Source of the DNA: Haloterrigena gelatinilytica
Lineage (GTDB): Archaea; Halobacteriota; Halobacteria; Halobacteriales; Natrialbaceae
Reading direction: 5' to 3'
DNA length: 64,000 nucleotides
NCBI RefSeq assembly: GCF_013342145.1
Contig: NZ_JABUQZ010000001.1
Span: forward strand, 2,666,001 to 2,730,000
Below the pieces are notes generated by a model, which ran no database searches, was not told the origin of the DNA, and worked only from the letters and a program-made list of their open reading frames with translations. Below, piece by piece: positions 28,919 to 63,630 of the stretch. Every line of letters begins with the position of its first letter. Positions within the stretch are counted from its first letter, which is position 1. Made by a program: the position numbers and the translations under genes.

Positions 28919-29356
28919 ATGACCGACCTCACCGTTACCGTCGGCGACCGAACGCTCGCGGCCGCCTGGACCGACGACGCTCCTGAAACGCGGGCCGCGC
29001 TCGAGGGGGTCCTGCCGGTCGCCGGCGACGCCGTCCGCTGGGGCGACGAGTTGTACGTCGACGTCTCGCTCGACGTACCGCCCGAAAACGCCCGCGAGGT
29101 CGTCCCCGAGGGCGCCATCGCGTACTGGCCGGCCGGCGAGAAACTGTGTTTGTTTTGGGGCGAGACGCCCGCGAGCCGTGCGAGGTCTGAGCGGAGCGAA
29201 GACCTCGATATGGCGAGCGGTGACGACGGAACCGCGAGCCAGAACGGCGAACCGCGCGCCGCCGCGCCCGTTACCGTCGTCGCTCGAGTCGAGGACTGCG
29301 CCGCGCTGGTCGATCTCGAGGGCGGGGCGCGACTGCGACTCGAGCGCGCGGCGTGA
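28919..29356 (+). CDS. Cyclophilin-like fold protein with in-frame palindromic insertion
   Basis: A 145-residue protein: MTDLTVTVGDRTLAAAWTDD, AVRWGDELYVDVSLDVPPE, IAYWPAGEKLCLFWGETPAS. This is the pattern of the Cyclophil_like (TM1367-like) family of small beta-barrels. Between the barrel strands, residues about 85-100 (SRARSERSEDLD) are encoded by a palindromic repeat element; the following 25 residues are low-complexity. The C-terminal strand VTVVARVEDCAALVDLEGGA completes the fold. The role is unknown. Confidence 0.75.
   Translation: MTDLTVTVGDRTLAAAWTDDAPETRAALEGVLPVAGDAVRWGDELYVDVSLDVPPENAREVVPEGAIAYWPAGEKLCLFWGETPASRARSERSEDLDMASGDDGTASQNGEPRAAAPVTVVARVEDCAALVDLEGGARLRLERAA
29181..29207. 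repeat. Palindromic repeat element inside a coding gene
   Basis: CGAGGTCT (29181-29188) and AGACCTCG (29200-29207) flank the core gagcggagcga. The left flank ccgtgcgaggtct recurs at 35150-35162 at the start of the hairpin array. The element adds in-frame codons to the cyclophilin-like gene and is a REP/MITE-like candidate. Confidence 0.65.
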
Positions 29357-33687: not shown

Positions 33688-34989
33688 CTACCGCTCGATA
33701 CGAAGCTCCGTCTTCTCGGCGACGGCGTCGGCCTCCTCGAAGTCTCCGCCGCCGAGCAGGCCGCGGGTAGCCTTCTTGGCCCACTCGACGGCCGGCTGTT
33801 CGAACGTGTTGACGCCGTACAGTTCGCCCGCGAGGACGCAGGCCGCCTCCATCCCGTAGAGGAGGCCGCCGAGTTCGTACTCGTCGACGCCCTCGAGTTC
33901 GAGCCGGACGTTCGGCCGGCCGGCCGCCGCGAGGCTGGCCTCGGTGGCCTCGAACTCCGCCTCGAGCAGTTCGCCGAGCGTCGCGTCGCCGAGGTACGCC
34001 AGTTCGTCGACGTCGGTGTCGGGGATCGACCGGTCGTCGGTCTCGCCCGGCGAGACGAAGGTGACGAGTTTGTCCCGCGGGCCCGCCCGGTAGAGCTGCA
34101 ACTGAGAGTGCTGGTCGGTCACGCCGAGCGCCCGCGCCGGCGTCTGCCCGAGGTCGTCCTTGCCGAGGCTCTCGGCCCACAGCTGGGCGAACCACTCGGC
34201 GAAGGTCTCGAGCGACTCCGCGTAGGGGACCATGGCGTTGACGGCGGCGCCGCGCTGGTCGAGCGCGTAGGCCGTCGCCCCGTAGGCGTAGGCCGGGCAG
34301 TCGAACAGCGAGCCGGTCAGGCTCTCGCGCTCGGCGGCGGCGCCCTCGAGTAAGGCCTCGAGATCGTGGCCGCAGACGGCCGCCGCGACCATGCCGACCG
34401 CCGACAGCGCCGAGAAGCGGCCCGGAACGCCGTCGGGGACCTTCAGCGACGGGAGGTCGTGCCGGTCCGCGAGGTTCCGGAGCGGGCCGGACTCGCCGGT
34501 CGTCACGATCGTGCGCTCGGTCCAGTCGACGCCCGCGGCCTCGAAGGCGTCGCGAACGACGAGGAAGTTCGCCAGCGTCTCCGCCGTCGTTCCCGACCGC
34601 GAGACCACGTTGATCGCCGTCTCCTCGAGGGGGAGTCGCTCGAGGTGACTCGAGACCCACTCGGGGTCGACGTTGTCGAGGTAGACGGCCTCGGTGTCGC
34701 TCTCGTCGGCGAGCGCGTCCGTGATCGTCGCCGCGCCGAGCGCGCTGCCGCCGATGCCGACCGTGATCAGGGCCTCGGCGTCGGCGACCGGCTCGACGGC
34801 CGCCCGGATCTCGTCCGGATCGGTTCGTTCCGGGAGGTTGAGGGCCTCGTAGCCGTGCTCCGACTGTTCCATCCCCGCGACGATGCGCTCGTGGGCGTCC
34901 GCGACCTGCTCGTCCAGGCGCTCGAGGGACTCCCTCGAGGCGCCCGGCGACGCGACCGACGCGAGCGCGTTACCGATATCGACGTTCAT
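33688..34989 (-). CDS. pgi: Glucose-6-phosphate isomerase
   Basis: A 433-residue sugar isomerase of the SIS fold interconverting glucose-6-P and fructose-6-P. The sugar-phosphate loop is ITVGIGGSALGAATI, SRSGTTAETLANF is the second SIS motif, LGVTDQHSQLQLY holds the catalytic His region, and GVNTFEQPAVEWAKK carries the conserved Gln/Lys near the C-terminus. The length suits haloarchaeal PGI. It is monocistronic and preceded by the hairpin array. Confidence 0.95.
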   Translation of the reverse strand: MNVDIGNALASVASPGASRESLERLDEQVADAHERIVAGMEQSEHGYEALNLPERTDPDEIRAAVEPVADAEALITVGIGGSALGAATITDALADESDTEAVYLDNVDPEWVSSHLERLPLEETAINVVSRSGTTAETLANFLVVRDAFEAAGVDWTERTIVTTGESGPLRNLADRHDLPSLKVPDGVPGRFSALSAVGMVAAAVCGHDLEALLEGAAAERESLTGSLFDCPAYAYGATAYALDQRGAAVNAMVPYAESLETFAEWFAQLWAESLGKDDLGQTPARALGVTDQHSQLQLYRAGPRDKLVTFVSPGETDDRSIPDTDVDELAYLGDATLGELLEAEFEATEASLAAAGRPNVRLELEGVDEYELGGLLYGMEAACVLAGELYGVNTFEQPAVEWAKKATRGLLGGGDFEEADAVAEKTELRIER

Positions 34990-35506
34990 ACGCGAGAGGG
35001 CTACCGCCTGTGATAAAGGCGTTCCGTGATGGGATCGCTCGCCGGCGAGACAACGAGGGTTCGTCTCGACTGGCTCGTTGGAACTGAGCCCCGACTGCGG
35101 TGGCGCGCGCTGTCGGCCGGACGAGTGATAACGAGTCCGGCCGATGGAACCGTGCGAGGTCTTCGTGAGTGTAACGAACGAAGTCGTTCGAGACGGCTTT
35201 GCCGTCTCGTGATGCGAAAAATCCCTGATTTTTCAGCAGCTTGTCAGAATTCACTCTGACAGTGGATGAGCGACGGGAGGGAGCGTTAGCGCGGGACCGA
35301 GGTCCCGCGAACCAGCCGAACGGGTGCTTCGCACCCGTGAGGAGAAATCGGCTGGGGAGGGTGTGGAAATCCCCGTTGCCACGAGAGCAGAACGCTTCTC
35401 TTTCCAGCCGCTCCGATCGAAGCTCCCGTTCCACTTCCGATCCGCGACCGCCCGTTCGAGAATCGAAGCCGAAACCCGGAAACCGATCCGCCCGCTACGA
35501 CCGCTC
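34990..35506. other. Intergenic region between pgi and a DUF5812-like gene
   Basis: Over 500 bases with no credible ORF. The first 120 bases carry the pgi promoter side, the centre is the hairpin array, and the last 150 bases (35356-35506) lead into the next gene with no clear feature. The short frames here run straight through the hairpins and have no conserved character. Confidence 0.6.
35113..35355. repeat. Array of seven inverted repeats (hairpin cassette)
   Basis: Perfect or near-perfect dyads: 35113-35122/35135-35144 (10 bp), 35175-35181/35184-35190 (7), 35189-35197/35201-35209 (9, TTT loop), 35216-35223/35227-35234 (8, CCT loop), 35242-35248/35255-35261 (7), 35290-35298/35301-35309 (9), and 35320-35327/35331-35338 (8, TTC loop). 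The last is nested in an outer stem 35312-35319/35348-35355. The stems differ in sequence, so this is not a CRISPR. It shares ccgtgcgaggtct with the element at 29181. Confidence 0.85.
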
Positions 35507-35980
35507 ATGACCGAACAGACGAGCACGTTCGTCGTCACTCACGCCGAGAGCGAGTCGGCCGTCATCCGCGACGTCGAGACCGCCCAGGTCCACACGCTCG
35601 GCTCGAACCCCGGCCTCGAGATCCACGACGTCCTCGAGGCGACCGTCGCCCCCGAGCCGCCCCTGGAGGTCACCTGGCAGGTGATCGACGTCGCCGACCG
35701 CCGGTCGATCGAACTGGTCGACAGCGACCTCGCTCCGACCCAGCACGCGACGGAGCTGGCCGCCGACGCCGACGTCGGCGACCTGATTCAGGAGGAGCGG
35801 GCCGGCACCGGTGAGATCCACGTCTTCCGCGTTCCCGAAGCCGAGGTGGAGTCGGCGGCCCAGGACGTCCTCGAGGACGAGGAGACCATCGCGCGGGCGG
35901 CCCGCCTCGAGGCGGTCCGCGTCGAGGTCCGTCGCTCGGCCGACGACGGCGTGTTGAGCGTGCGGTATCTGCCCGACTGA
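35507..35980 (+). CDS. Conserved haloarchaeal protein (DUF5812-like)
   Basis: A 157-residue acidic protein: TFVVTHAESESAVIRDVETA, VHTLGSNPGLEIHDVLEATV, LEVTWQVIDVADRRSIEL, and a C-terminal helical part with EDEETIARAARLEAVRVEV. An OB/TRAM-like beta N-terminal domain is plausible. It resembles the haloarchaea-specific DUF5812 family, of unknown function. The start at 35507 is used because the upstream open frame passes through the hairpin array. Confidence 0.72.
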   Translation: MTEQTSTFVVTHAESESAVIRDVETAQVHTLGSNPGLEIHDVLEATVAPEPPLEVTWQVIDVADRRSIELVDSDLAPTQHATELAADADVGDLIQEERAGTGEIHVFRVPEAEVESAAQDVLEDEETIARAARLEAVRVEVRRSADDGVLSVRYLPD

Positions 35981-63273: not shown

Positions 63274-63630
63274 TCAGGCGCCGGTCGGGGAGTCGCCGAG
63301 TCGATCGGCGCGGCCGGCCGAAATCGGCTCGGCCGCCGCCGGGGTGCCGTCGATCGTGATCTCGAGGTCGGACCCGCACTCGACGACGATCGCGTGGCCG
63401 TCGTAGGTGAACTCGAGACGACCGCGGCGCGGACCGCCCGTTCGCGTCGGCGCGAAGAGGGCGTCCAGGGCATCGGGATCGATCGACTCGTAGAGGGGCG
63501 GTAGCTCGGTCGGCTCGACGTCGCGCTCGGTCGCGACCGCAGTGACGACGGCGATGCTGATGTCCCCGTCGAACCCGTCGTCGATCGAACCGATGAATGA
63601 ATTACTCACGTCGTACTCAACCGTTCCCAT
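63274..63630 (-). CDS. HalOD1 domain protein
   Basis: A 118-residue protein carrying haloarchaeal output domain 1: SIAVVTAVATERDVEPTELP, PLYESIDPDALDALFAP, GRLEFTYDGHAIVVECGS. HalOD1 occurs alone or fused to signalling receivers in haloarchaea and is thought to relay signals. The tail is disordered. The AT-rich run just upstream (about 63635-63690) is the likely promoter. Confidence 0.86.
   Translation of the reverse strand: MGTVEYDVSNSFIGSIDDGFDGDISIAVVTAVATERDVEPTELPPLYESIDPDALDALFAPTRTGGPRRGRLEFTYDGHAIVVECGSDLEITIDGTPAAAEPISAGRADRLGDSPTGA

Follow-up and report, generated by a model that had tools for sequence, protein, structure and literature searches.

REP-like mobile palindromes with a dedicated transposase are well known in bacteria, and the units of BIMEs (bacterial interspersed mosaic elements) are REPs of ~35 bp. 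REPINs and REP sequences, associated with RAYT transposases, are multicopy intergenic palindromes of bacteria that are thought to move as folded single-stranded DNA (PMC3116915). The SMR-A repeats (small mobile repeats) of Haloquadratum walsbyi are about 110 bp long, have no transposase, produce no target duplication and insert into the palindromes of other elements, and the PATEs (palindrome-associated transposable elements) of Haloquadratum are related to the ends of IS605 and carry palindromes near their termini (PMC3119063). Here, we analysed a hairpin array of Haloterrigena gelatinilytica; coordinates refer to the window, that is, the whole analysed stretch of 64,000 nt, unless the chromosome is named. 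We assign a probability of roughly 0.7 to the reading that this array is a copy of a haloarchaeal family of protein-free, non-autonomous mosaic mobile repeats with a folding plus strand. A search of the open literature for the conserved motif of this family and for haloarchaeal palindromic repeats gave the Haloquadratum PATE and SMR work as the only near match (PMC3119063), an absence that is not proof of novelty; as far as the open literature goes, this is apparently miniature mobile DNA of an undescribed kind.

A hairpin array within a longer repeat unit

The hairpin array at 35113-35355 is confirmed as real and consists of the following structures:
35113-35144, perfect dyad, 10 bp
35161-35183, tandem-GA hairpin, 6 bp
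35189-35209, perfect dyad, 9 bp
35216-35234, perfect dyad, 8 bp
35242-35261, perfect dyad, 7 bp
35290-35309, perfect dyad, 9 bp
35320-35338, perfect dyad, 8 bp
35312-35355, plus strand, nested outer stem CCAGCCGA / TCGGCTGG, joining the inserted module B to the conserved 3′ motif; imperfect in other copies

The original prediction, made from the window alone, had counted seven perfect dyads of 7-10 bp with short loops throughout. Six are indeed perfect over at least 7 bp and the seventh reaches only 6 bp; most loops are short, the exceptions being one of 12 nt (GAGTGATAACGA) and another of 6 nt. The last dyad is nested in an outer stem as predicted, CCAGCCGA at 35312-35319 pairing with TCGGCTGG at 35348-35355. 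Dyads of at least 7 bp occur on average 0.48 times, and at most three times, per non-overlapping 243-base interval of the 64 kb, leaving the density of the array unmatched. The suggested folding of both strands showed 35100-35390 to be far more stable than shuffled sequences (z = -7.6 and -6.7), and likewise when folded as DNA. The hairpins of the region form no direct-repeat family, in agreement with the earlier view that this is neither CRISPR nor a tandem repeat; both are ruled out because there are no identical or near-identical direct repeats among them.

The 243-base span first proposed is not the natural unit. Because genomic copies have the same left and right ends and different interiors, the unit is longer and has conserved ends:
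35095-35396, plus strand, whole interspersed element (CTGCG-GTGGCGCGCGCTG ... GTTGCCACGAGAGCAGAACGC), its ends common to many copies of the own genome and to relatives; the outer limits are approximate

Its neighbours are pgi (33688-34989, minus strand) on one side and, on the other, a conserved gene whose start is at 35509; the two genes are divergent.

Copies, distribution and genomic setting

A BLAST search of the own genome, with 35100-35400 as query, yielded 74 matches with a common left end (CTGCG-GTGGCGCGCGCTG), a common right end (GCGAATCGGCTGGGGAGGGTGTGG...GTTGCCACGATAGCAG) and differing interiors. A covariance model gave 65 matches there, which correspond to about 57 distinct copies after joining split copies and omitting the weakest, all of them on the 4.29-Mb chromosome, which carries seven Cdc6/Orc1 genes. 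Five congeners have >50 matches per genome, and the exact pattern of the right end was found in at least 120 stretches across many genera of Halobacteria, including Natrinema, Natronococcus, Haladaptatus, Halorussus, Halococcus, Halogranum, Halobium and Halolamina. The recurrence search that had been suggested for haloarchaeal genomes was thus clearly positive, both in the own genome and across the Halobacteria. With the covariance model, the family was present in 55 of 116 sampled Halobacteria genomes and in none of 66 genomes from other classes of the same phylum. Copy numbers from this class search are lower bounds, as strict filters were used and at most 32 candidates were scored per genome; within one genus they range from 0 to at least 32, and the element is therefore dispensable. 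No phage record contained the element, the exact pattern had no match in 2.9 million viral contigs and plasmids were nearly free of it (two partial megaplasmid matches), which led us to reject a phage or plasmid origin.

The pgi spacer lacks the element in most relatives; in one genome (G029), it is occupied by a minimal element whose H1 hairpin differs. In five genomes of the same genus (G001-G005), the spacer between pgi and the conserved gene is about 2 kb long and holds other sequence in place of the element.

None of about 167 copies had its right-end motif inside a predicted gene, gene calls being codon-usage predictions made for this analysis. The gaps that contain the element are convergent in 39 cases, tandem in 61 and divergent in 15, compared with 36, 164 and 109, respectively, among element-free gaps of at least 120 bp (p = 7e-9). 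The element is intergenic, shuns divergent gaps and hence promoter regions, and is tolerated mostly behind genes. It has no sense or antisense preference relative to the neighbouring genes (+E+ 43, -E- 39); a 3′-UTR element is ruled out, as orientation is independent of gene direction.

Copies also occur as close neighbours, which in four genomes were tail-to-tail in 13 cases, head-to-head in one and tandem in none, with about 0.9 expected. Short, variable unique sequence separates the tails of paired elements; on the own chromosome, tail-to-tail pairs lie at 177 kb, 611 kb, 859 kb, 1690 kb, 1826 kb and 4121 kb. Identity within pairs was 0.75 vs. 0.73 for random copies (p = 0.33, 10 pairs), and inverted duplication was rejected as the origin of pairs, their members being no more alike than random copies. 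Enrichment in convergent gaps, depletion in divergent ones and the 13 of 14 neighbours in tail-to-tail arrangement would suit a cis-acting transcript 3′ end or an element of chromosome topology, such as a terminator, an insulator or a BIME-like gyrase site. We consider this quite improbable, however, given an orientation unrelated to gene direction, genomes of the same genus without the element and a window copy that lies between divergent genes.

We also observed a second interspersed haloarchaeal family, with a conserved GGGTGGGACTGAAAGGGGC followed by variable hairpins and often GGGGCTTTC further along (loci L035, L042, L046, L052, L058, L077, L102, L106, L107 and L115). In Haladaptatus, it adjoins the right end of the window-type element.

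Pairing on the plus strand

According to two alignments (A1, A2), a minimal copy of ~150 bp comprises the conserved ends, a stem P1, a hypervariable hairpin H1, a stem P3 and a G-rich 3′ motif. The corresponding features in the window are:
35104-35109, plus strand, P1 5′ strand CGCGCG, pairing with 35151-35156; covarying, and paired in 99.5% of cells across 71 copies
35113-35144, plus strand, H1 hypervariable hairpin; its cap GA-GT-GATA-AC-GA is a tandem G-A plus a GNNA loop
35151-35156, plus strand, P1 3′ strand CGTGCG; the family form is CGYGCG
35265-35273, plus strand, P3 5′ strand GATGAGCGA, with covarying two-pair steps split by near-invariant tandem G-A
35346-35366, plus strand, most conserved motif of the family, AATCGGCTGGGGAGGGTGTGG, comprising the 3′ strand of the P3 base and a G-rich tract; near-invariant in A1 and A2
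35367-35396, plus strand, right tail ...CCCCGTTGCCACGAGAGCAGAACGC, kept within the own lineage; where two elements form a tail-to-tail pair, each tail points toward the other

P3 is built of Watson-Crick steps, each two or three pairs long, in alternation with tandem G-A; the G-A columns are kept in 71/71, 70/71, 68/71 and 68/71 copies, and the intervening pairs covary (GC/GC, AC/GT, GT/AC). Over P1 and P3 together, 98.3% of cells are paired and double-sided changes number 83 vs. 20 in shuffles, slid registers being far worse; with H1 added, the figures are 218 vs. 80. The H1 stems vary between copies with pairing kept, so that nearly any stem occurs, often capped by GA-NN-loop-NN-GA. Two further pairings, P0 (left GTGG with CCAC of the tail) and P4 (inside the tail), are highly paired but lack covariation and hence are not claimed.

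On the plus strand, G-T exceeded A-C by 86 to 2 in P1 and P3 of A1, by 52 to 0 in P1 of A2 and by 31 to 15 in H1. Because mutation alone would make G-T and A-C equal, this points to selection on the folded plus strand. The asymmetry is compatible with RNA and single-stranded DNA alike and does not tell them apart. Among the apical loops, C(GNA)G triloops and C(GNNA)G tetraloops are seen most often; the third position of the tetraloops holds 20 pyrimidines and 12 purines, hence no purine preference. Both are stable hairpin loop types of DNA, and RNA would favour GNRA; the balance tilts toward single-stranded DNA without being settled. For the near-invariant GGYTGGGGAGGGYGTGG at 35346-35366 and its homologues, we note that it could be a candidate two-tetrad G-quadruplex, a fold that would benefit from the high K+ concentration inside haloarchaeal cells.

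So strongly conserved a pairing could equally indicate a functional RNA. The family would then be a multicopy structured non-coding RNA, transcribed from the plus strand and folding into P1, H1 and P3, with the inserted modules as peripheral expansions and transcripts having 5′ ends near GTGGCGCGCG. The covariation and the wobble asymmetry agree with it, as does one P1 position (pair 14-73), at which G-U is the most frequent pair in the 71 copies (G-U 36, G-C 30, A-U 4). Against an RNA speak the loops without GNRA bias, an orientation to neighbouring genes that is not fixed, sister species with zero copies, and a module found outside elements, where it disrupts a gene. There is also no Rfam match above the gathering score, by which a known Rfam family is rejected. 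On balance, we regard an RNA as unlikely, and for the folded form itself we favour single-stranded DNA over RNA by a modest preference.

Module insertions, mobility and known systems

The window copy equals a minimal element plus two modules:
35160-35264, plus strand, module A, about 105 bp, lying between P1 and P3; its four hairpins are 35161-35183, 35189-35209, 35216-35234 and 35242-35261
35286-35345, plus strand, module B, about 60 bp, interrupting the 3′ strand of P3; its two hairpins are 35290-35309 and 35320-35338

They occupy exactly the positions at which insertions were seen at two other sites. At locus L002, a ~105-bp insert (TCTTCGTGAG...CAGTG) separates GAGG from GATGAG in the own copy and is missing from G001 and G002, and at locus L016 the own genome and G001 have a minimal element to which G002 adds a ~60-bp insert (TTAGCGCGGAACC...GAGGAGA) between GAGCG and AATCGG. 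Module B also occurs alone, at chromosome 63327-63387 (L024:1504-1564), as a 58-bp insertion near the C-terminus of a regulator-like gene, where the resulting frameshift substitutes another sequence for the original C-terminus; the gene is uninterrupted in G001-G004. Within the own genome, matches that cover all of module B share 84-91% identity with the window copy. For both modules, any target duplication could span 0-2 bp at most. Mobility of modules A and B, which are mostly seen inside elements and not only there, is thus well supported by these sequence comparisons.

A third type, module C, is represented by a 63-bp two-hairpin insertion at 29171-29233, in frame in a conserved gene, with the sequence CGAGGTCT-GA-GC-GGA-GC-GA-AGACCTCG followed by a second tandem-GA hairpin. 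It is common to the own genome, G001 and G002, and missing from G003 and G004; hairpins of this type are also nested in H1 loops at chromosome positions 859510 and 1773737. This corrects the prediction that the palindromic feature at 29181 is kin to the start of the array, as it is a separate module inside a gene. The 13-mer behind that link, CCGTGCGAGGTCT, is indeed present at 29176 and again at 35150, yet in the array it is internal and not the start, straddling the junction of core and module A (ten bases of core, then TCT as the first bases of the module). What survives of the predicted "modular mobile or structural cassette" is the recurrence and the precise insertion of modules, not its unit size, its start or the link to 29181.

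Hairpins might instead arise by mutational turnover, template switching perfecting the palindromes and gene conversion copying the modules with no mobile element involved. Stems of orthologues do differ by paired substitutions (L002 site) and recombination among copies is possible, but module B interrupts a coding gene whose sequence around the insertion has no evident homology to elements, and palindrome correction would erase the conserved tandem G-A mismatches; this is a very improbable explanation.

Non-autonomous mobile DNA would suit the dispersal, the uneven copy number among genomes, the modules inserted into elements and genes and the avoidance of promoters. That one folded strand is conserved agrees with a single-stranded form being recognised. 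Under the mosaic mobile repeat reading, the plus strand would fold when single-stranded into P1, H1, a tandem G-A P3 and the G-rich 3′ motif, the folded strand would be mobilised by an enzyme encoded elsewhere, and the window copy would have been enlarged by precise insertion of the mobile hairpin modules A and B. That the whole element is mobile, and that it moves via a folded single strand, is what we infer from these patterns: full copies are old and diverged, with recent insertion visible for the modules only, and no transposition intermediate, clean empty site of a whole element, target duplication or mobilising enzyme was found. A Y1 transposase (PF01797), RAYT included, had no match in the own genome.

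That result bears on the possibility that the family consists of degenerate IS200/IS605 ends, i.e. PATEs mobilised by a TnpA Y1 transposase, which would place GTGGCGCGCGCTG or GGGGAGGGTGTGG near the ends of some IS605 element of Halobacteria. Haloarchaea are rich in IS605 and in transposase-free PATEs with near-terminal palindromes (PMC3119063), and the single-strand polarity agrees. Apart from the lacking PF01797 match, however, the conserved ends of the family are unlike derived IS ends, and the own TnpB loci have no flanking 3′ motif or left end beyond chance-level partial matches (the right-end motif with two mismatches at L188, left-end-like sequence only at L185). We judge this origin improbable, and a TnpB/omega-RNA scaffold is ruled out, as the motif is missing from these loci.

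More tentatively, and with considerable doubt, mobile hairpins could be nested class-wide, a folding element of ~150 bp being moved single-stranded by a non-Y1 enzyme and serving as landing pad for smaller modules; if true, this would be a new route for making and spreading structured non-coding DNA. The family would be an archaeal counterpart of the bacterial repeats, with dozens of intergenic sites per genome, selection for the folding of one strand and growth by insertion of smaller hairpins. It makes the origin and spread of structured non-coding DNA without its own enzyme testable in culturable haloarchaea, and the covariance model can annotate otherwise blank sequence.

Among known systems, BIMEs are likewise mosaics of palindromic units with conserved connecting motifs between genes, but the haloarchaeal modules insert within a folded core. 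With REPINs, the element shares intergenic palindromic repeats, over-represented inverted doublets and compensatory stem changes (PMC3116915); it differs in a multi-helix core and a unit length of at least ~150 bp, in a genome without RAYT/Y1 match and in pairs that are tail-to-tail, with variable spacers and members no more alike than random copies (75% vs. 73%). SMR-A are also short, transposase-free archaeal repeats, and modules A and B, seen as precise insertions inside elements, may resemble them in the way they insert; SMR-A are homogeneous, commonly >95% identical, and have inverted terminal repeats (PMC3119063), whereas the modules are hairpin mosaics with variable stems and do not combine terminal inverted repeats with so high an identity. 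PATEs, like the element, are non-coding, palindromic, heterogeneous, multicopy and targets for smaller insertions, but the haloarchaeal element is filled with palindromes throughout, and the own TnpB loci gave no link to IS605. The best reading of this comparison is that the element may work like a REPIN, SMR or PATE, which is a matter of likeness and not of membership.
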